Source: Desulfobacteraceae bacterium (GTDB lineage: Bacteria > Desulfobacterota > Desulfobacteria > Desulfobacterales > Desulfobacteraceae). From it: a stretch of 11,821 nt of DNA. Both the position numbers and the translations under genes were made by a program. The stretch lies in contig JAAEMC010001143.1 in NCBI GenBank assembly GCA_024225895.1, positions 1 through 11,821 on the forward strand, read 5' to 3'. Position 1 is the first letter of the stretch. The number at the start of each line of letters is the position of its first letter. Positions 1 to 11,476 of this stretch are shown here, piece by piece. Under the pieces are notes generated by a model. It did no database searches. It saw only the letters and a program-made list of their open reading frames with translations, and was not told the origin of the DNA.

Positions 1-436
1 AAATTTGGCGTTTGGGGTCATCAATTTGAAAAAGGTTTGACTTGTGTTTGTCTGCAGTTGTTTGGCAGAAGACTTCATATCTTCGCAATACCGCCTTGAC
101 CCTGGCAGAGAGTTCGCGCGGGCTGAACGGCTTTACCATGTAATCATCCCCCCCGATTTCAAGCCCCACAATCCGGTCGATCTCATCAGACCTGGCTGTC
201 AGAAAAATGATGGGGATATTGCTCTTTTTCCGGATCTCTTTGCACAATTCCATGCCGTTTATATCCGGCAGCCCTATATCCAGGACAATCAGCGCAACCT
301 CGTGGCGGGACAGGTGTTCAATAACCCTGCCCCCGCAATTATGCCACGTGGTATCAAAGCCTTCGGTTTCAAGGGCATATTTGATATTTTCAGCAATGGC
401 CGGTTCGTCTTCAATAATGAGTATCTTGGATTTCAT
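1..436 (-). CDS. creB: CreB-like response regulator, receiver domain (3' end beyond window)
   Basis: Partial gene; about 145 codons are present and the C-terminal DNA-binding part lies past position 1. From the ATG at 436 the product has a complete OmpR/PhoB-type receiver domain: acidic pocket E9-D10, phospho-acceptor D53 in VLDIGLPD, T80 in FLTAR, and K102 in VKPFSPRE. The stretch FLTARSDEIDR followed by GLEIGGDDY resembles E. coli CreB more than PhoB or OmpR, and the two upstream genes include a CreD homologue, which supports the name. As a family member it would be phosphorylated by a CreC-like kinase, expected just off the left edge, and bind TTCAC-N6-TTCAC; such a site lies upstream of the operon at 3092-3107. 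The ATG has only GAG directly in front of it. An in-frame TTG 14 codons upstream has a better-spaced AGAAGG, so the true start could be longer. The gap to creD is 68 bp. Confidence 0.85.
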   Translation of the reverse strand, partial: MKSKILIIEDEPAIAENIKYALETEGFDTTWHNCGGRVIEHLSRHEVALIVLDIGLPDINGMELCKEIRKKSNIPIIFLTARSDEIDRIVGLEIGGDDYMVKPFSPRELSARVKAVLRRYEVFCQTTADKHKSNLFQIDDPKRQI

Positions 437-504: not shown

Positions 505-1734
505 TCAATGAATTTCAGGTGGGCATGCCGGGATTGTTTTTTTATTCCTGATTGGTGTTTTTATGGATGCAAATACGTCATCCCAGTCAACATGTGCGGT
601 CAATTTCATCAGGATTGCCAGGGTGACAACTGATCCTGTGGCCACGATGATGCCTGTGATGCCTTCTATGAAAAAGCTGTATGAAAAGAGCACCAGAAAA
701 AAGAGCTGCCCGCATACGGCTATTTTCCACGGGAATTCTTTGCCCAAAGCCGCACAAAGATACAGCGTTACAAGCATGACAGAGATCCCTGCAGAGATGA
801 TAAATGCAGTATGTATCCAGATATGGCCCGCCATATAAGAGAGCAGTAAATGAAAGGCAAAAAAACCTGCTGCCACAAAAAGGTAGTGCATTGGATGGAT
901 ATTGATTTTTTTCATGATACCGATCGCCGTGACAAGGATAAAAAAGAAAAGCAGGCAGACAGGTGCAAAATAGGTGATTCTGGTGGTCAAAGGGCCGGGA
1001 TTTAATTTTTCAGGCACGATGATGCCGATATGGCTGTTGGTAATTAAATCAGAGGCGGTCCAATTCAGATTCAGCCCGTCATTCAATTCTTCCTGTGACA
1101 TGGGGGACAGGCTGTTCGGTGTGTAATCAATCTTTTTAAACCCTGTTTTTGCCGATAAGTTGAAATTTTGTACCCGGCCGGTTTTCTTGGCCATCTGGTA
1201 CCGCCATGTATCCATCCCCCGCGCCTGGTACTGAACCTTGAATGTAACGGATTGTCCGGGTGCAAGTTCAATCATCTCGTCAATTCCGGTATTTGTATTG
1301 ACGGATGTTCCCAAAAGCCTGTCATCAAGATGAATGGCAAAGGCATCATAGGTTGCGCCTTTGGCCGGAAAATCAAAATGGATATATATTTTTTGAACAA
1401 CCTCTTCTTCATTTGCTATGGTATAGATACCTTTAAAAAATGAGCGAAAGGTTGAATACCATATCAGGCCTTTCTTTTTGTATTCAGGATCAATTTCAAC
1501 GGAAATGTCGTTTTTTACCGGCATCAGCCATCTGACATCTTCTGTGCCCGGTATTTTTGTATAAAAGGCCGGTGCCTCCTGAACAAGATTGTCCCCCCAT
1601 AAAGACTGCACCCGGGTTTCCAGCAGATGTGTAAACCCGGAAGACCTGAAGGATGTAACCGTACCCAACGTCCACCAGCCGGCCCAGCCGATAATATAGA
1701 TAACCCCTATTGCAATTATTTTTTTAATACTCAT
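505..1734 (-). CDS. creD: CreD-family inner-membrane protein
   Basis: A 409-residue protein with one N-terminal membrane segment (about 4-25), a periplasmic domain of roughly 230 residues, and five C-terminal membrane segments (about 253-274, 283-301, 307-329, 335-354, 358-378). The C-terminal part carries the family hallmarks: NIHPMHYLFVA at 278-288 corresponds to the NPMHYLLVG of E. coli CreD, and HVDWDD at 381-386 to its terminal RVDWY. E. coli CreD is about 450 residues; the periplasmic part here is shorter and I do not see close similarity to it. CreD is the best-known output of the CreBC two-component system and is linked to envelope integrity and beta-lactam or colicin responses, but its biochemistry is unknown. 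The ATG at 1734 is preceded by AAAGGAG at 7-bp spacing. It lies 71 bp after the secreted-protein gene and 68 bp before creB, so one operon is likely. Confidence 0.8.
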   Translation of the reverse strand: MSIKKIIAIGVIYIIGWAGWWTLGTVTSFRSSGFTHLLETRVQSLWGDNLVQEAPAFYTKIPGTEDVRWLMPVKNDISVEIDPEYKKKGLIWYSTFRSFFKGIYTIANEEEVVQKIYIHFDFPAKGATYDAFAIHLDDRLLGTSVNTNTGIDEMIELAPGQSVTFKVQYQARGMDTWRYQMAKKTGRVQNFNLSAKTGFKKIDYTPNSLSPMSQEELNDGLNLNWTASDLITNSHIGIIVPEKLNPGPLTTRITYFAPVCLLFFFILVTAIGIMKKINIHPMHYLFVAAGFFAFHLLLSYMAGHIWIHTAFIISAGISVMLVTLYLCAALGKEFPWKIAVCGQLFFLVLFSYSFFIEGITGIIVATGSVVTLAILMKLTAHVDWDDVFASIKTPIRNKKTIPACPPEIH

Positions 1735-1805: not shown

Positions 1806-2996
1806 TCATTTTTGATTGTGTTGCCTTACAGGCTCTTTATACATGACCGCTATTGTCATGCCCTGTCCCCTGTAGAAGGCACGGGAAAAATAATAGGGTC
1901 TGCCCATGAATTCTTTTGGGGCCTTTGCTTTGATTCCGGCCGCAGGAGTTACCGGCCCCTCGTATGAGACAAGGTCTACTCTTTCGGGCAGCCCTACCCC
2001 AAGAAATATCTTTCTGGAGGGCAGGTCCATGCCTGGCAAAAATACCTCAAGCCTGCCATGAAGGCCCATTTTGGGGACCTGGCGAATTAATGAAAGCTCA
2101 ATGTACGAGTTTTGATCCTTGGCCAGTGGAATCAGCCAGTGGCCAGTATTACCGGGACTGGTATACACTTTCTTTCTTTTATTATTAACTTTCAGACTCC
2201 ATACATCCGCTCCTGGAATTGTTTTAATCTTGATGTGTGATCCTGCCTCAGAAGGCACCGTCATAACAAGAGTGGAAAGGATAGTGCCATTTTCTTCCAG
2301 GGTTGTAAAATATGAAATCGTATCCAGTACAATTGGAGGCGTTTTAACGATTTTGTAATCTTTTGCAAAATCTTTTGTTGTTTCACCCTGGTTTTTTTCG
2401 CCTTGTTTTTTAAATGAGAAGCGCAGCATCAGTTTTTGTTGGGCTGCAAAATGGTATGCGCCTGAAGAATCAGGCATGCCTGGTGATTCCATAAGATGAA
2501 TATGCTTTGGAAGATCAAGGGTGAGTGAATTTTTTAATGCACTTGGAATGTCCATGGAGACAAGTTGTGAGCGGTTATCTTCCAGAACAGGCAGAAAAAA
2601 TGAAATCTTTATCAAAAAAGGCCCTTCTGCCTTTGGAAGAAAACTGATGCCCCCTGTCTGTTTTTGGCTGCATAAAAGTGATCCATTGCTGATTTCCCGG
2701 ACCTTTTTGATGATCATATTATTTTTAAAAATGGGAATTGGACCAATTTTTCCTGCAATGGAATCCCCTTTTAACACAAGCTCACCATGGCAGCCATTGG
2801 TTTCAATTTTCATATTGTATTGTACTGAATCAATACCGTAAATGTGCGGTGAAGCATCTTTGCGGTCTGCCAATTTTCTTTCAACGCTTTCCTGGAACAA
2901 TGATTTAAATTCCTGCCAGGGAAAATTTACACTGTCTTGAGCCAGGGCTATGCTTGGAAAGAGAATAATCCATATAATCAAAATAATTTTTTTCAC
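1806..2996 (-). CDS. Exported protein of unknown function, first gene of the cre operon
   Basis: A 396-residue protein that I cannot assign to a named family. It starts at GTG (2996), with AGGAG 5 bp upstream. Residues 1-19 form a typical Sec signal peptide (KK, hydrophobic core, then ALA before QDS). No other membrane segment is seen, so a periplasmic or envelope location is likely. Two cysteines (C69, C109) could form a disulfide. The mature part looks rich in beta strands, with a polar linker at about 197-212 (GEKNQGETTKD) between two halves. The second half contains a VNNKRKKVYTSPGN stretch and LPGMDL, both loop-like. It is much longer than E. coli CreA (about 157 residues) and does not resemble it. 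It is the promoter-proximal gene of the cre operon and directly precedes creD, so it may work with CreD at the envelope; this is inference from position. Confidence 0.75.
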   Translation of the reverse strand: MKKIILIIWIILFPSIALAQDSVNFPWQEFKSLFQESVERKLADRKDASPHIYGIDSVQYNMKIETNGCHGELVLKGDSIAGKIGPIPIFKNNMIIKKVREISNGSLLCSQKQTGGISFLPKAEGPFLIKISFFLPVLEDNRSQLVSMDIPSALKNSLTLDLPKHIHLMESPGMPDSSGAYHFAAQQKLMLRFSFKKQGEKNQGETTKDFAKDYKIVKTPPIVLDTISYFTTLEENGTILSTLVMTVPSEAGSHIKIKTIPGADVWSLKVNNKRKKVYTSPGNTGHWLIPLAKDQNSYIELSLIRQVPKMGLHGRLEVFLPGMDLPSRKIFLGVGLPERVDLVSYEGPVTPAAGIKAKAPKEFMGRPYYFSRAFYRGQGMTIAVMYKEPVRQHNQK

Positions 2997-3001
2997 GTCT
3001 G

Positions 3002-3006
3002 CTCCT
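3002..3006 (-). promoter_or_regulatory. Ribosome binding site deciding the GTG start at 2996
   Basis: On the minus strand AGGAG (within AAAGGAGC) lies 5 bp before GTG-AAA-AAA. The reading frame then opens at once into a signal peptide, so the non-ATG start is well supported. Confidence 0.7.
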
Positions 3007-3017
3007 TTCTTTGTGGT

Positions 3018-3057
3018 TTTTTAAATGAAAATTTTTTGTAACCATTTCATTTAAAAA
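3018..3057. repeat. Perfect 13-bp inverted repeat in the cre-operon leader
   Basis: The arms TTTTTAAATGAAA (3018-3030) and TTTCATTTAAAAA (3045-3057) are exact reverse complements separated by 14 bp. The element lies between the cre tag and the ribosome binding site of the exported-protein gene, and its right arm overlaps a possible -10 (TATTTT, 3059-3054 on the minus strand). It could be an operator for a second regulator or, if transcribed, a leader hairpin. AT-rich arms make chance more likely than for a GC-balanced repeat of this length. Confidence 0.5.
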
Positions 3058-3069
3058 TAGGAGGAGTAT

Positions 3070-3107
3070 GTGAAAAAAAAATTAAGTGAATGTGAATTTA
3101 TTGTGAA
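3070..3107 (-). promoter_or_regulatory. CreB-type binding site (cre tag TTCAC-N6-TTCAC) with extra half-sites
   Basis: On the minus strand TTCAC occurs at 3107-3103, 3096-3092, 3090-3086 and 3074-3070. The first two have exactly 6 bp between them (TTCACAATAAATTCAC), a perfect match to the direct-repeat cre tag bound by E. coli CreB and by BlrA in Aeromonas. The most distal and most proximal units are 33 bp apart, three steps of 11 bp, so they lie on the same DNA face; the 3085-3081 position between them is degenerate. A weak -10 (TATTTT, 3059-3054) lies 10 bp after the last TTCAC, an arrangement expected of an activator replacing a -35. The site is 74 bp or more upstream of the exported-protein gene in the creB/creD operon, so autoregulation is the simplest reading. 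Confidence 0.75.
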
Positions 3108-3203
3108 TTTGCATCTGGTGTTCAGATAATTTATGTTGAATTTGGAAATGGAATACCGCAGACATTCACAACACTGGGGATAAATACAAGCTGTTGCCTA
3201 CGC

Positions 3204-5000
3204 TTAAATTTTTTCTTTTTTCAGGAGATGGTAATATTCGCCCTTTGCCTTTTTAAGCTGATCGTGGGTACCCTGTTCCCGGATAATGCCGTCCCGTAAA
3301 AGAAGAATAGTGTCGCACTCTCTCACCGTGGACAGACGGTGGGCGATGATGATGGAAATCCGGCCCTCCATAAGGCGTTTCATTGCCTCATGGACTTTTT
3401 GTTCAGACTGGGAATCCATATAGGAGGTTGCCTCATCAAATATGATCAGGTCCGGGTTAAAGGCAAAAGCCCTGGCAATGCAGACCAATTGTTTTTCCCC
3501 GCTGGACAGGGGACGGCCGCCCTCTTCGATTTGGGTGCCGATCCCTGCATGTTTTTCAAATAAAAAGTCGCAATTGGCTTCCATCAGGGCTTTTTCAAGC
3601 GCTTGATCTTCAAGGGTTTGGTTGGAAGGCGCAATATTCTCTTTGATGGTGCCGGAAAAGAGCACCGGGTCCTGCATGACCAGGGCGGTTTTTGACCGGA
3701 TGTCCTTGATGTTTATGGAATTATGATTCTTGCCGTTCACAAGGATCCGGCCCTTTTTGGGGGCATAAAATCCGGTTAGAAGATTAATCACAGAGCTTTT
3801 ACCGGAGCCTGTCCTGCCCACAATACCGACGGATTTGCCCTGCTCGGCAGAAAACTTGATATCTTTTAAAACAATTGTCTTCTGATCATAGGAAAAAGAG
3901 ACGTTTTCAAATTGAATGTTTTGTATGCGGTCCAGATAGGTACGGTCCCCGGTTTGTCTTTGCCGGACCGTATCTGTATCCAGCACCGTGATGATCCTTT
4001 CCGCAGAGGCCAGGGCATTTTGCAGCAGATTGAATTTTTCAGACAGATCCCGCAAGGGCCTGAAAAAAAGTTTCATATAGGAAAGAAAGGCCACAAGTTC
4101 CCCCAGGGTCAATTGATCCCGGATCATACCCCGGGAGCCTGCATAGAGAATTATTGCCGTGCTCAACACTGCTAAAAATCCGATAAACGGCATAAAAACG
4201 GAAAATGTCTTGATCTGGAACAGGGTGGTTTTAAAATATTCAAAATTGAGTTTTGAAAATCGTTTTAAAAAAATATGTTCACTGGCCGTAGTCTGGATGA
4301 TCTTGATGCCGGTGATGGTCTCGGAAAAACTGTGGTTGATTTCTGCTATTTTCTGGCGGATGGTTCGAAAAGTCTTTCGCATTATTTTGGAAAAGATATA
4401 GATGCCGGCGGTAATAAAGGGTACCAACAAAAAAATACAGGCCGTCAGCCTGAAATTAATATAGAACATGATACCGAGAATGGCGGCCATGAATACCAGG
4501 TCCTTGAATATAAATACCAGGATGTTGGTGAACATCTCATTCATATTTTCAATATCACCGGCCACCCTTGCCACCAGACGGCCGCTGCTGTTTTTGTCAA
4601 AATATGCCACCGTAAGGTTCGTCATGTGGGAAAAAAGCGTGCACCGCAAATGGAGAATGATTTTCTGGCCGGAATATTCCATGAACATGGTCTGGAAAAA
4701 ATCAATGACCAGGGAACCTGAAATCAGGCAGAGAAACAGAACACAAAAGCTTGAAAAAGAAGAAATGGGAATACCGAGGATTTGAGTTCCCGGCTCAGCG
4801 TTTACCGGCACGATAAACCCGTCAAAGGCTTTCTGTGTAAAGATGGGGGCCAAAAGGTCCAGAAAGGTTACAATAAAGACAAGGGCCGTGGAGATGCAAA
4901 GCATCCAGAAATAGGGTTTGACATAGGGCCAGATCCCTTTGATCAGCTTGATGTCCGCAAGGGTAACTTCCCGCTCTTCCAAAGTGACATCAGGATCCAT
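3204..5000 (-). CDS. ABC exporter half-transporter, catalytically competent subunit (MdlB/LmrD-like)
   Basis: A 598-residue type IV ABC exporter subunit: six-helix membrane domain (about 25-320) fused to an ATPase domain (about 360-598). Motifs seen: Walker A GRTGSGKS 395-402, Q-loop Q443, signature LSSGE 498-502 (departs from LSGGQ), Walker B ending D522 with the catalytic glutamate E523, D-loop YMD 527-529, and H-loop H554. With the preceding gene it would form a heterodimer in which this subunit gives the competent Walker B and the partner gives the intact LSGGQ. I take the ATG at 5000: it overlaps the end of the upstream subunit by 11 bp and has AAAGGA just before it. A longer in-frame version from 5060 would overlap by 71 bp and add 20 residues unlike the family. 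Substrate unknown. No convincing terminator is seen after the stop. Confidence 0.9.
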   Translation of the reverse strand: MDPDVTLEEREVTLADIKLIKGIWPYVKPYFWMLCISTALVFIVTFLDLLAPIFTQKAFDGFIVPVNAEPGTQILGIPISSFSSFCVLFLCLISGSLVIDFFQTMFMEYSGQKIILHLRCTLFSHMTNLTVAYFDKNSSGRLVARVAGDIENMNEMFTNILVFIFKDLVFMAAILGIMFYINFRLTACIFLLVPFITAGIYIFSKIMRKTFRTIRQKIAEINHSFSETITGIKIIQTTASEHIFLKRFSKLNFEYFKTTLFQIKTFSVFMPFIGFLAVLSTAIILYAGSRGMIRDQLTLGELVAFLSYMKLFFRPLRDLSEKFNLLQNALASAERIITVLDTDTVRQRQTGDRTYLDRIQNIQFENVSFSYDQKTIVLKDIKFSAEQGKSVGIVGRTGSGKSSVINLLTGFYAPKKGRILVNGKNHNSINIKDIRSKTALVMQDPVLFSGTIKENIAPSNQTLEDQALEKALMEANCDFLFEKHAGIGTQIEEGGRPLSSGEKQLVCIARAFAFNPDLIIFDEATSYMDSQSEQKVHEAMKRLMEGRISIIIAHRLSTVRECDTILLLRDGIIREQGTHDQLKKAKGEYYHLLKKEKI

Positions 5001-5790
5001 ATTCTTTCCTTTCAAACTGCTGGACCAGATAAGATTCTTTGTAAAAGGCGTCTGTTTCAAGCAGTTCTTTGTGGGGGCCGTGGTGGGTCACACAGCCGTC
5101 CTTCAAAATATAGATCCGGTCACAGGACGCCAGTGCTGAAATCCTGTGGGAAATAATAATAAAGGTTGCGTTCCGGTTCAATCGATTGATGTTTTGCATG
5201 ACGCTTTTTGCGGTCTGGGTATCCATCTGGCTGATGGGGTCATCCAGGATAATAATTTTTCGGTCAAGCAGCAGGGTTCTGGCAAGAGCAATTCTCTGTT
5301 TCTGGCCGCCGGACAGGGTAATGCCCCGTTCCCCCACAATGGTGGAAAGGCCGTCGGGCATTTCATTCACTGTGGCTTCAAGCATGGCGGCAGAGAGGAT
5401 GGGTTTGAGCTTTTCATCAGGAATATTCCTGCCCATGGCGATGTTTTCCCTGATGGTACCGGAGAACAAAAAAGCTTCCTGGGGCATGAAGGCAATCTGG
5501 CGGCGCAAGAAAGCAACATCCATGGCACTTATATCCACGCCATCCAATATAATTTTACCTGAATCAACATTGTATAACCTTGCAATAAGCTGAACCAGAC
5601 TTGTTTTCCCGCTGCCAGGCGGTCCACTGATGCCGACTATGCCACCGGGCCGGATATCAAGGTTGATGCCGGACAGGGAGTTTTTCATACCATCATAGGA
5701 GAAATCTACATTTTCAAAAGTGATTTTGCCCCGGACTTTGTCCGGGAATATCGGATGTTCAACAGTAGTGACCTTGGGTTGAGATTCTAA
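4990..5790 (-). CDS. ATPase-domain half of the frameshifted ABC exporter subunit
   Basis: Residues 311-576 of the repaired subunit. Motifs seen: Walker A GPPGSGKT 366-373, Q-loop Q414, intact signature LSGGQ 469-473, Walker B IIILD ending at D493, and H-loop H525. The residue after the Walker B aspartate is D494, not the catalytic glutamate, and DDPISQMD replaces the usual DEATSALD. This is the pattern of the degenerate-site subunit of heterodimeric exporters such as TM287/288 or LmrCD. The frame remains open upstream to about 6063 through antiframe membrane-domain sequence, but that stretch makes no family-like protein. The first in-frame ATG after the shift is at M345, inside the ATPase fold, so independent translation of a full domain is doubtful. 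Confidence 0.7.
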   Translation of the reverse strand, partial: LESQPKVTTVEHPIFPDKVRGKITFENVDFSYDGMKNSLSGINLDIRPGGIVGISGPPGSGKTSLVQLIARLYNVDSGKIILDGVDISAMDVAFLRRQIAFMPQEAFLFSGTIRENIAMGRNIPDEKLKPILSAAMLEATVNEMPDGLSTIVGERGITLSGGQKQRIALARTLLLDRKIIILDDPISQMDTQTAKSVMQNINRLNRNATFIIISHRISALASCDRIYILKDGCVTHHGPHKELLETDAFYKESYLVQQFERKEYGS

Positions 5791-6719
5791 AGGGTCTGCA
5801 CCCGTTTCAAAGAGGCAAGGCCCCTTTGAAAGAGGTTGGTCATCCACCCGATGGCAATGATGGGCCAGGAAAGAATGCCCAGGTATTGGATAAATGCCAC
5901 CAGCTCTCCGGGAGAAACGGCTTCCCGAATGACCAGGGCACCTCCGTAAAAAAGAACGATCAAGGTGGATAAATGGAAAAAAAAGTTCATTAATGGCCTT
6001 AAAAGCGCTGAGACAATCGACCGTTTTAAATTTTTTCCAAAATAGTCCCTGGCAAACAAACAAACCTTTTCCGAGATGAGTTCTTCAAAATTAAAAACCT
6101 TTAACACCCGGATGCCGAAAAAACTCTCCCGGATAAGTTCCGTTAATGAGGAATAAGACTCCTGGGCGGTCCTGTGCAATGAATGCATCCGTTTACCCAG
6201 ATACCGGATAAACAAGATGAGAAACGGCATTGGCAGCATGGCCAGAAGGGTGAGTTTTACATTGGTCCACAGCATGATCAAAAAGGTGGTGGTTCCCAGG
6301 ACCATGGCATCTGCCAGTACAATAAACCCAATGCCGAATGCCATGCGTATGTGGTTGATATCACTGGTTGCGTGGGCCATGATATCTCCGGTCTTTTTCT
6401 TATCGTAAAAGGCCATGTCCAGTTCCAGTATATGGGAGAACAGCTCATCCCTGATTCCGCGCTCCAGGAATCTGGCATTTCCCATTAAAAGCCACCGCCA
6501 TCCAAATCTTAAAGCAGCCATGACAAAGCCTAAAAAGATGACCAGCAGGCATTGGCGGATTAGAACCGTGTTGTCAAAAGAACCTTGGGCCAGGATATCA
6601 ATGACCCTTTTAACGACCTGGGGAATAAGGACCTGGACCGCATCCACAATGATGACGGCCAAAAGGCCCAGCAGGATTTTAGGCAGGTTTTTTCTAAAAT
6701 ATGGGAGAATCAGTTTCAA
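5787..6719 (-). CDS. Membrane-domain half of the frameshifted ABC exporter subunit
   Basis: A 310-residue product as written in the DNA, containing only the transmembrane domain. It opens with a cytoplasmic lead (KLILPYFRKN) followed by hydrophobic stretches at about 13-33, 57-75, 129-150, 155-174, 245-263 and 275-295, fitting the six helices of a type IV exporter. FYDKKKTGDIMAHATSDINHIR (the segment at 104-125) is the conserved first coupling-helix region of the family (FFDxxxxGxLxsRxxxDvxxv). Without the ATPase domain this product cannot drive transport. The frame ends exactly where the linker to the nucleotide-binding domain begins. Confidence 0.7.
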   Translation of the reverse strand: MKLILPYFRKNLPKILLGLLAVIIVDAVQVLIPQVVKRVIDILAQGSFDNTVLIRQCLLVIFLGFVMAALRFGWRWLLMGNARFLERGIRDELFSHILELDMAFYDKKKTGDIMAHATSDINHIRMAFGIGFIVLADAMVLGTTTFLIMLWTNVKLTLLAMLPMPFLILFIRYLGKRMHSLHRTAQESYSSLTELIRESFFGIRVLKVFNFEELISEKVCLFARDYFGKNLKRSIVSALLRPLMNFFFHLSTLIVLFYGGALVIREAVSPGELVAFIQYLGILSWPIIAIGWMTNLFQRGLASLKRVQTL

Positions 6720-9328: not shown

Positions 9329-10138
9329 TCACTGCGCAAAGCCGATGAAATTTTTTTTCACCACTTCCTGGCCCTGGTCAGACAGGGCCCAGGTGATAAA
9401 TTTTTTTTCCTTTTTTCGCGGGTGGGGGTGGGTAATGAGATATAAAGGCCGGAAAACCGGGTAACCGGTATTTTTTGCAGAGGCGTCCTGCCCGTTAACG
9501 CAGATGGTTTTGATATGGTCTTTGTAGCGGTTACCGACCGCAAGAGCAAGGCTAAGCTGGCCTATCCCGGTCTGATCCCTGGCAATGGCATTGAGTATGG
9601 CAGGATCCGGTTTAATGGCCTTTATCCGTTTGCCTGAATATTCTTTGCCTTTTAATATGATGTTTTGAAATACCTTATGGGTGGCAGAATTTTCATTGGC
9701 AATATAGACATTGATTTTTGCATCATCACCACCCACTTTTTTCCAGTTTGTGATTTTGCCTGTGAAAATGGCGGCAAGCTGGTCACAATCAAGATTCTGG
9801 ACCGGATTTCGCGTGTTGATCCAGATACCGATGGCATCCTTGCCAATTAAATGTTTTTGGCTTCCAGCCGCAAGATGGCCTTGCTCAATATGCCGTGCAA
9901 CCCCCAGTATGTCGGTATCGCTAAAGATTACTGCGGTATCATTTCCCGTATCCCCTGGTCTGATAATGATCTTGAAGTTGACATCTTTATAAACTTTTGC
10001 CGCGTTTTTCATAAAAATACCAATGGTGGAAGAGCCCGTATACTTTATGGTTTGGGCATGGGATAAGTGAATGGTTCCCATAGTTAAAAAAAGGATCATT
10101 AAAATAGTAATATTTAATTTTGACGGCCTTGTTTTCAT
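9329..10138 (-). CDS. PstS-like periplasmic phosphate-type substrate-binding protein
   Basis: A 269-residue exported protein with a signal peptide at about 1-28 (cleavage after SHA). GSSTIG (35-40) corresponds to the first phosphate-binding loop of PstS; IFTGKITNWKKVGG (124-137) is the most recognisable PstS hallmark (IF-x-GKI-x-NW); NENSATHKVF (148-157) corresponds to the R-x-x-GSGT-x-x-F loop but is altered, and SDQGQEVVKKNFIGF (253-267) is the typical C-terminus. Loss of the canonical arginine and GSGT residues means phosphate may not be the ligand; single-domain PstS-like proteins are also used as sensors or for other anions. No pstC, pstA, pstB or phoU is nearby. ATG at 10138; no clear Shine-Dalgarno and no Pho box. 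A small dyad AGTCT-TTTG-AGACT (10154-10167) lies just upstream. The gene converges on sixA. Confidence 0.75.
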   Translation of the reverse strand: MKTRPSKLNITILMILFLTMGTIHLSHAQTIKYTGSSTIGIFMKNAAKVYKDVNFKIIIRPGDTGNDTAVIFSDTDILGVARHIEQGHLAAGSQKHLIGKDAIGIWINTRNPVQNLDCDQLAAIFTGKITNWKKVGGDDAKINVYIANENSATHKVFQNIILKGKEYSGKRIKAIKPDPAILNAIARDQTGIGQLSLALAVGNRYKDHIKTICVNGQDASAKNTGYPVFRPLYLITHPHPRKKEKKFITWALSDQGQEVVKKNFIGFAQ

Positions 10139-10696: not shown

Positions 10697-11476
10697 ATGA
10701 CACCCGAAGAATTAAGACATCTGGCAGCCACAGGGGAATTTGATCATCATACTGCGGGATACTGTGAAGGGTATGTCCAGGCAAACCTGGTTGCACTGCC
10801 CCACAAATATTCCTTTGATTTTTTACAATTTTGTAAAAACAATTCCAAACCCTGCCCGGTGCTCGAAGTAGTCGGGCCTAATTCGCACCAAACGCACCGC
10901 CTGGCAGATAACGCAGATCTGCTCAATACCATCCCCAGATATCTGGTTTTCAAAGATGGGGTGGTTGATAAAGAAGTGAATCAGATTATGGCTTATTATA
11001 CGGATGATCTGGTGTTTTTTTTAATTGGGTGCAGTTTTTCTTTTGAGCAGGCTCTGATTTGTGCTGGAATCCCCTTGCGCCATATCGAGCAGAACAAAAA
11101 TGTTTCCATGTATAATACCAATATACCGCTGAAATCAAGCGGGCCCTTTTCCGGCAATATGGTCGTGAGTATGCGGCCCATCCATCAAACTCTTGTTGAT
11201 AAAGCCCATTCAGTTACCAGTGCGTATCCGGATGTCCATGGCGCTCCCATTCATAAAGGGAATCCCGGATTGATCGGTATTAAAGATATCGACATACCAG
11301 ACTACGGTGATTCCGTAGAGATCAAACCGGATGAAGTCCCTGTTTTCTGGGCCTGCGGAGTGACCCCTCAAAATGCGCTTGTTGAGGCAAGGCTCCCCAT
11401 TGCCTTTACCCATGCACCCGGATTTATGTTTGTGTCAGATATACGCAATGAAGAATTTTTAACATGCCAGAGCTAA
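10697..11476 (+). CDS. DUF1445/YcsI-family protein (putative hydro-lyase, D-glutamate cyclase-like)
   Basis: A 259-residue cytosolic protein, full length for the family. Family hallmarks in order: GYVQANLV 25-32, DFLQFCKNNSKPCP 41-54, PRYLVFKDG 80-88, FLIGCSFSFE 108-117, GIPLRHIE 124-131, NVSMYNTNIP 135-144, VVSMRP 156-161, VHGAPIHKGNP 180-190, VPVFWACGVTPQ 214-225 and THAPG 238-242. The family is annotated as a putative hydro-lyase; its human relative DGLUCY converts D-glutamate to 5-oxo-D-proline, and bacterial relatives sit near 5-oxoprolinase or lactam genes. The reaction here is not proven. ATG at 10697 with AGAGGA 7 bp upstream. It follows a sigma-54 promoter and two leader repeats, and is 187 bp before a probable TRAP solute-binding gene, suggesting it processes the imported substrate. 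Confidence 0.88.
   Translation: MTPEELRHLAATGEFDHHTAGYCEGYVQANLVALPHKYSFDFLQFCKNNSKPCPVLEVVGPNSHQTHRLADNADLLNTIPRYLVFKDGVVDKEVNQIMAYYTDDLVFFLIGCSFSFEQALICAGIPLRHIEQNKNVSMYNTNIPLKSSGPFSGNMVVSMRPIHQTLVDKAHSVTSAYPDVHGAPIHKGNPGLIGIKDIDIPDYGDSVEIKPDEVPVFWACGVTPQNALVEARLPIAFTHAPGFMFVSDIRNEEFLTCQS

Follow-up and report, generated by a model that had tools for sequence, protein, structure and literature searches.

Introduction

Two described systems come close to the regulatory element analysed here, the cre/blr tag and the pho box. The cre/blr tag, TTCACN6TTCAC, belongs to CreB of Escherichia coli and BlrA of Aeromonas, and both the tag and its requirement for activation are stated in excerpts of two reports (PMC3660660, PMC4689548); an excerpt of a third calls cbrA, cbrB, cbrC and creD the CreB/CreC regulon (PMC3599342). 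The literature consulted describes CreBC from a few Gammaproteobacteria and with a two-unit tag, and its signal and purpose are unsettled. Our literature search found no study of CreBC or of the tag in Desulfobacterota beyond passing co-mentions of CreBC with desulfo- terms, and no link of CreBC with exosortase K. In the pho box, which is read by PhoB, direct repeats of a short word recur every 11 bp and replace the -35 element.

Here we analyse a stretch of 11,821 nucleotides from a Desulfobacteraceae bacterium (the window), which is the entire contig G000:C1143 of an 81%-complete assembly. Its minus strand carries a phased TTCAC array that shares with the cre/blr tag its unit, its 11-bp repeat distance and its place upstream of creD-family genes near creBC, but which has four units instead of two, precedes an operon of other content and comes from an anaerobic member of the Desulfobacterota rather than from the Gammaproteobacteria. 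The repeat format is also that of the pho box, but the word differs, being TTCAC here, and PhoB belongs to a different clade of regulators, whereas the regulator of the window is best matched by CreB in NCBIfam. Judging from the DNA and its relatives, we consider it highly probable that the element is a Cre-type promoter, which the operon's own phosphorylated CreB would bind and activate.

Results

A four-unit array ahead of a creD-family operon

A pattern search over the whole window finds the perfect TTCACNNNNNNTTCAC once, at 3092-3107 on the minus strand, in agreement with the exact TTCAC-N6-TTCAC that a sequence-only reading of this DNA had proposed. The two additional TTCAC units of that reading are likewise present on the minus strand, at 3086-3090 and 3070-3074, and its 11-bp phasing was borne out, as the starts at 3107, 3096 and 3074 are separated by 11 and 22 bp; the unit at 3090-3086 falls out of phase. 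Taken by phase, the minus-strand unit starts at 3107, 3096, 3085 and 3074 form a four-unit array, which scores 18 of 20 letters:

3103..3107, minus strand: unit 1, TTCAC, first half of the perfect tag, read in the sequence
3092..3096, minus strand: unit 2, TTCAC, second half of the perfect tag, read in the sequence
3086..3090, minus strand: extra TTCAC, 6 bp past unit 2 and outside the 11-bp phase, read in the sequence
3081..3085, minus strand: unit 3, degenerate TTAAT, its position set by the 11-bp phase
3070..3074, minus strand: unit 4, TTCAC, read in the sequence

The perfect pair is the upstream pair of the array and the promoter-near pair is partly degenerate; unit 2 of the TTCACN6TTCAC sits 96 bp 5' of the GTG start at 2996. 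An extra out-of-phase unit comparable to that at 3086..3090 also occurs in a related genome (G003, L012:217).

The sequence-only reading had treated the perfect tag as the signal. The tag exists, but the telling part proved to be the four-unit array together with the spacing to the -10 box described below. The assembly from which the window comes holds 10 perfect two-unit tags against 8 for the reversed pattern, which is near background, and the perfect pair was dropped as evidence by itself. Three of the 10 tags sit in a four-unit array of at least 16/20, namely those of the window (18), L001 (17) and L002 (16), the last located inside an open reading frame. The L001 array (L001:593-640, G000:C202) reads TTCAC.TTCAC.TTCAT.TTCCT and lies ahead of a short open reading frame that, judged by eye, resembles the remnant of an HlyD-type adaptor.

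This background is what speaks for the repeat being an accident of A/T-rich intergenic DNA. Dinucleotide shuffles of the window contain one TTCACNNNNNNTTCAC in 4 of 200 cases, and TTCAC is without overall enrichment in the whole window (19 observed, 24.7 expected). None of 5000 Markov resamplings of the 225-bp region, scored on both strands, attained the four-unit score of 18/20, and a chance origin is further opposed by the fixed distance to the -10 box, by the occurrence of the array with CreC and by its retention before orthologous operons whose upstream neighbour genes differ. We give an accident almost no credence, and consider it refuted because the array is conserved.

The operon downstream has the following genes:

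1806..2996, minus strand: first gene, an exported protein of 396 aa (the partner) with no Pfam or NCBIfam family
505..1734, minus strand: CreD-family membrane protein of 409 aa, matched by Pfam CreD on its C-terminal membrane part alone
2..433, minus strand: CreB-like response regulator by NCBIfam, receiver domain only, cut by the contig end

The tag had been placed upstream of a creD/creB operon; a CreD-family and a CreB-like gene are indeed there, but neither stands first in the operon. The partner is tentatively predicted to have two beta-sandwich domains, of the ribophorin I/OST1 and M1-aminopeptidase N-domain types. A 550-aa form of it was found in Verrucomicrobia, Kiritimatiellae and Hydrogenedentes.

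The description of the other two products as CreD- and CreB-like holds for both, but CreD falls under the NCBI cut-off and CreB is too short for its DNA reading to be judged. The CreD protein passes Pfam PF06123 (51.6 bits, cut-off 23) over residues 228-384 only and fails the NCBI equivalog NF008712 (52.1 bits, cut-off 275); it is a divergent family member and, unlike NF008712 CreD, falls in a subfamily of shorter proteins, about 410 aa long. This subfamily occurs in Desulfobacterota, Hydrogenedentota, Kiritimatiellae and Verrucomicrobiota, where the partner gene often accompanies it, and the name 'inner membrane CreD family protein' is already in use at NCBI. A scan of the genome contigs with the window CreD as single query gave no match. 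The best of 99 NCBIfam matches to the receiver domain is CreB (193 bits), followed by BaeR (146). As the window is a whole contig, creB is cut at base 1 and its DNA-binding half is unreadable; neither a full-length CreB nor CreC was found in this 81%-complete assembly, in which the contig ends inside creB.

Elsewhere in the window the neighbours are ordinary, with a PstS-like phosphate-binding protein (9329-10138, minus strand) and a D-glutamate cyclase family protein (10697-11476, plus strand). The second ABC exporter gene (4990-6719, minus strand) consists of two overlapping open reading frames in different frames (4990-6063 and 5787-6719) and seems broken near 5800, by assembly error or decay.

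Promoter geometry

We aligned 34 arrays. Those of the window and L026 were positioned by hand; the others came from 11 selected Desulfobacterota loci of at least 16 and from loci of named genomes of at least 17. Counted from the first unit, the alignment favours T at offset 48 (22 arrays), A at 49 (33), C at 52 (23), T at 53 (29) and A at 60 (25). The arrays had been selected without regard to a -10 box, and after removal of four near-identical Burkholderia rows the A..T pattern of a box at offset 48 (letters at 49 and 53) is present in 25 of 30, compared with 11 of 30 for the runner-up offset. We interpret the shared letters as a putative -10 box, which begins 15 nt past the first base of the last unit, and as a putative start site. 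The corresponding features of the window are:

3054..3059, minus strand: predicted -10 box TATTTT, first base 15 nt after the start of unit 4, at the offset shared by 25 of 30 arrays
3047, minus strand: predicted transcription start, the A at offset 60 (shared by 25 of 34 arrays)
3002..3008, minus strand: ribosome-binding site AAAGGAG ahead of the GTG at 2996, read directly

The window box is without the C usual at offset 52. The same 15-nt distance is found in E. coli K-12 at cbrA (TTCACN6TTCAC-N10-TAGTCT) and cbrB (TTCACN6TTCAC-N10-TAAATT); E. coli creD breaks the spacing, its TAGTCT starting 27 nt past the second unit, which is one unit and 1 nt too far. The window therefore matches the E. 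coli CreB targets cbrA and cbrB in its -10 spacing, but not E. coli creD. By this geometry the two-unit tag of E. coli would correspond to the promoter-near pair of a four-unit array. The E. coli promoter study of Cariss (2008) may already contain part of the -10 rule.

The same geometry bears on the direction in which the array works. That it serves repression, or a divergent promoter on the plus strand, is a reading we hold to be very improbable: the direction is taken from geometry, and the region 3108-3203 precedes no tested plus-strand feature, but in 15 of 15 group A loci the best array has the same orientation as the creD operon, the -10 box follows on that strand, and the literature, as far as excerpts go, has CreBC activating creD and cbrA.

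Conservation before orthologous operons

Of the relatives with a complete operon, G003 is the nearest; its gene order is partner-creD-creB-creC, and its CreD is 65% identical to that of the window. Its regulator exceeds the NCBI cut-off for CreB (324 vs 273 bits) and its kinase that for CreC (561 vs 356 bits). The G003 promoter reads TTCAC, TTCAA, TTCAT, TTCAC at exact 11-bp steps, and the gene upstream differs from that of the window. The same array precedes the orthologous operon in G003, in G619, which is in the same GTDB family as the window genome, and in G646. All eight partner-gene loci found have an array of at least 17/20 before the operon (window, L026, L121, L122, L179, L183, L191, L192), among them two titled Hydrogenedentota or Hydrogenedentes (L183, L192) and one titled Planctomycetota (L191). 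The sequence-only reading had named two observations that would count against it; a tag missing before orthologous operons was not seen at these eight loci, nor was a PhoB/OmpR-type regulator without a CreB-like helix, given that the G003 regulator passes the CreB cut-off and that its recognition helix, MDRTIDAHIKNLRQKL, is similar to that of E. coli CreB, YDRTVDTHIKTLRAKL. The helix was set aside as a CreB marker, since its core is common to other OmpR-family regulators, including ArcA and non-Cre regulators, and it is weak evidence by itself.

Association of the array with CreC in Desulfobacterota

Among 395 genomes of the phylum, 18 gave a PF06123 match, as did 39 of the 389 examined for the class. 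An earlier comparison had used 17 and 22 hand-picked regions and was repeated on all 55 creD loci that could be placed, in 53 genomes, leaving out the weak fragments L128 and L129. CreC exceeds its cut-off in 21 of the 53 genomes, and CreB does so in 20, G003 and G619 among them; in G717 creB is split (221 bits). With an array defined as four units on the sense strand, at least 15/20, in 400 bp around the operon start, and with the window genome set aside, an array precedes creD in 17 of the 21 CreC genomes and in 3 of the 31 that lack CreC (Fisher 2e-7, uncorrected for kinship). The same rule at spacings of 8, 9, 10, 12, 13 and 14 bp gives 0 in both sets. Of the four CreC genomes missed at creD, G662 has TTCAT x4 just beyond the search window, G529 and G584 have the array instead before VIT-xrtK-creBC, and for G594, which has CreBC, no creD array was found and the contig with creBC ends close 5' of creB, so that the promoter is out of reach. 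The three genomes with an array and without CreC are G715 (64% complete), G405 and G503, and in the last two creD adjoins another two-component system.

A word-free scan of all 256 four-letter words at 26 distances gave a concordant picture. In the 24 creD-operon regions of CreC genomes and the window, TTCA at 11 bp comes first (18 of 24) and TTCA at 22 bp next (15 of 24); in the 31 regions without CreC, TTCA at 11 bp is outside the top 8. A composite pattern of four TTCA and the -10 box, which was partly derived from arrays in the scanned genomes and therefore gives no independent result, has 42 matches with at most two mismatches in 19 of 22 CreC genomes (reversed control 7), compared with 13 matches in 7 of 22 genomes without CreC (reversed control 3), the latter run covering 22 of the 31 such genomes. 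Exact matches number 11 with CreC vs 0 without. An own-genome regulon was sought with this pattern and rejected, as the only match besides the window, in C647, has two mismatches and is not believed.

Spread across phyla

At least 584 CreC relatives in named genomes were found, of which the best 80 were kept, so that the sample leans to Desulfobacterota-like CreC. Among these best 80, an array of at least 16 at 11-bp spacing lies within 4 kb of creBC at 33 loci, compared with 1, 2, 2, 3, 2 and 2 loci at the control spacings of 8, 9, 10, 12, 13 and 14 bp. At a score of at least 17 in 1.43 Mb there are 28 matches at 11 bp vs 2 in total over eight other spacings. With phylum and class labels as given by the submitters, many on bins, the loci with an array among the best 80 of at least 584 are:

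Thermodesulfobacteriota 7/12, Verrucomicrobiota 5/11
Betaproteobacteria 8/22, Gammaproteobacteria 2/18, Alphaproteobacteria 1/1
Pseudomonadota without class 1/3, Myxococcota 1/3
Fibrobacterota 2/2, Bdellovibrionota 2/2
Hydrogenedentota 1/1, Planctomycetota 1/1, Fermentibacterota 1/1
Actinomycetota 0/1, no phylum 1/2

The arrays beside creBC thus carry nine phylum labels in this best-80 set. The other 47 of its 80 loci are without an array of at least 16 within 4 kb, including 16 of 18 in Gammaproteobacteria and 14 of 22 in Betaproteobacteria, where shorter or TCCAC-type repeats are seen.

A quick tree of CreC (84 rows, no bootstrap, unrooted) places the Desulfobacterota rows in one set with support 100, which also holds four unlabelled and two differently labelled rows. 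Phylum labels need 13 changes on this tree, with a minimum possible of 9 and a shuffled mean of 32. CreC clusters by phylum, a pattern more in keeping with long residence and rare transfer. The sequence-only reading had suggested that the Cre circuit, with its DNA code, is older or more mobile than usually described; the arrays in nine phyla and the CreC tree support the first part, but 13 changes, with 9 as the minimum and 32 as the shuffled mean, lend little support to the second. These comparisons support the view that the Cre circuit and its DNA code are probably older than the Gammaproteobacteria. The code extends well beyond that class, and its distribution looks much broader than laboratory studies would lead one to expect.

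Related codes and possible other readers

Another OmpR-family regulator could read the array here, the 11-bp format being shared and CreB one reader among several. Near-perfect arrays of 19-20/20 precede HlyD-RND efflux operons in four Desulfobacteraceae genomes (G022, G008, G034, G029), in which CreB or CreC over the cut-off was not found, and the TTCAC code is therefore not read by CreB alone:

L298:4095, L299:5558, L300:7292, L301:3449: HlyD-RND arrays, TTCAC x4

In five genomes creD lies beside a different two-component system, and its repeats are 11-bp phased with mostly TGCAC or TCCAC. TGCAC/TCCAC arrays of at least 16 at 11 bp, under a looser scoring with a two-letter second base, occur in 5 of 6 such regions vs 0 at other spacings, and under this looser scoring in 8 of 10 Pseudomonas creD regions vs 1 at other spacings, the six non-Cre and ten Pseudomonas regions having been picked by hand after earlier array results were seen:

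L079, L081-L083, L113, L095 and ten Pseudomonas loci: sister codes, second base changed

Together with the family-wide core of the recognition helix, these loci give the alternative some weight. Against it, all 15 loci with adjacent creBC have TTCA-type repeats, CreC presence predicts the array, and the regulator gene stands in the array's own operon in the window, G003 and G619. One apparent exception among the 15, L117, was a start-coordinate artefact, and with the start corrected TTCAT x4 is present at L117:4808. We regard a different regulator at this locus as unlikely; CreB is the best candidate reader for the window, and other readers of the word are possible.

Discussion

We propose that phosphorylated CreB from the same operon would bind the array as two head-to-tail dimers. 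Four direct repeats of TTCAC at 11 bp, one helical turn, would place the bound protein on one face of the DNA, and with the last unit 15 nt before the predicted -10 box, about -27 from the predicted transcription start, CreB may replace the -35 contact and recruit RNA polymerase in a PhoB-like activation. The switch would turn on its own operon, that is the partner, the CreD-family protein, creB and, in relatives, creC. The sequences themselves show the array, its phase, its fixed distance to the -10 box, its recurrence ahead of this operon in relatives and its association with CreBC; binding by CreB as paired dimers, activation rather than repression, autoregulation and a signal of envelope stress are the parts that we infer from them.

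A wider reading, which we offer tentatively and hold to be possible rather than probable, is that the Cre code is an old grammar of four 11-bp-spaced TTCAC units and a fixed -10 box, kept with CreBC across phyla, of which the E. coli tag would be the promoter-near pair. Its shared job would be the control of extracytoplasmic beta-sandwich proteins, and the roles in E. coli and in beta-lactamase expression would be later recruits. The beta-sandwich targets would then be the periplasmic domain of the CreD family, the partner with its predicted ribophorin-I-like fold and the VIT-domain proteins co-produced with exosortase K. A grammar that recurs beside CreBC under nine phylum labels would allow regulon prediction in any genome, and it points to envelope proteins (the CreD family, the partner, VIT-exosortase K) as common targets; with a predictable regulon and shared envelope targets, the purpose of CreBC would become testable by comparison.

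The VIT-exosortase K systems are further candidate targets. Where a VIT-VWA gene followed by an exosortase K gene lies beside creBC, the array precedes the VIT gene in 8 of the 9 loci that include the upstream part:

L173, L174, L175, L177, L289-L292 (Desulfobacterales): VIT-exosortase K loci with array

At the ninth, L172 (VIT-xrtK-creBC), no array of at least 16 was found. XrtK exceeds the NCBI cut-off in both proteins scanned (111 and 127 vs 55), and CreBC looks like a dedicated regulator of the VIT-exosortase K system, as far as gene order and arrays indicate.

Arrays were also noticed at several other genes. In a Verrucomicrobia locus (L196) one precedes a gene whose product, on inspection by eye, is VIT-like and ends in a PEP-CTERM-like segment. 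The loci L294 (1602 and 10289) and L295 (1594 and 11039), from G302 and G345, have arrays ahead of a very large exported-looking protein, of 1979 aa in L294. An 18/20 array at L296:259 (G569:C6) is followed by genes that seem, by eye, to include one for a MoxR-like ATPase. The E. coli CreB regulon includes a NUDIX gene, and in L294 an array also precedes the gene of a 162-aa protein that by eye is NUDIX-like.
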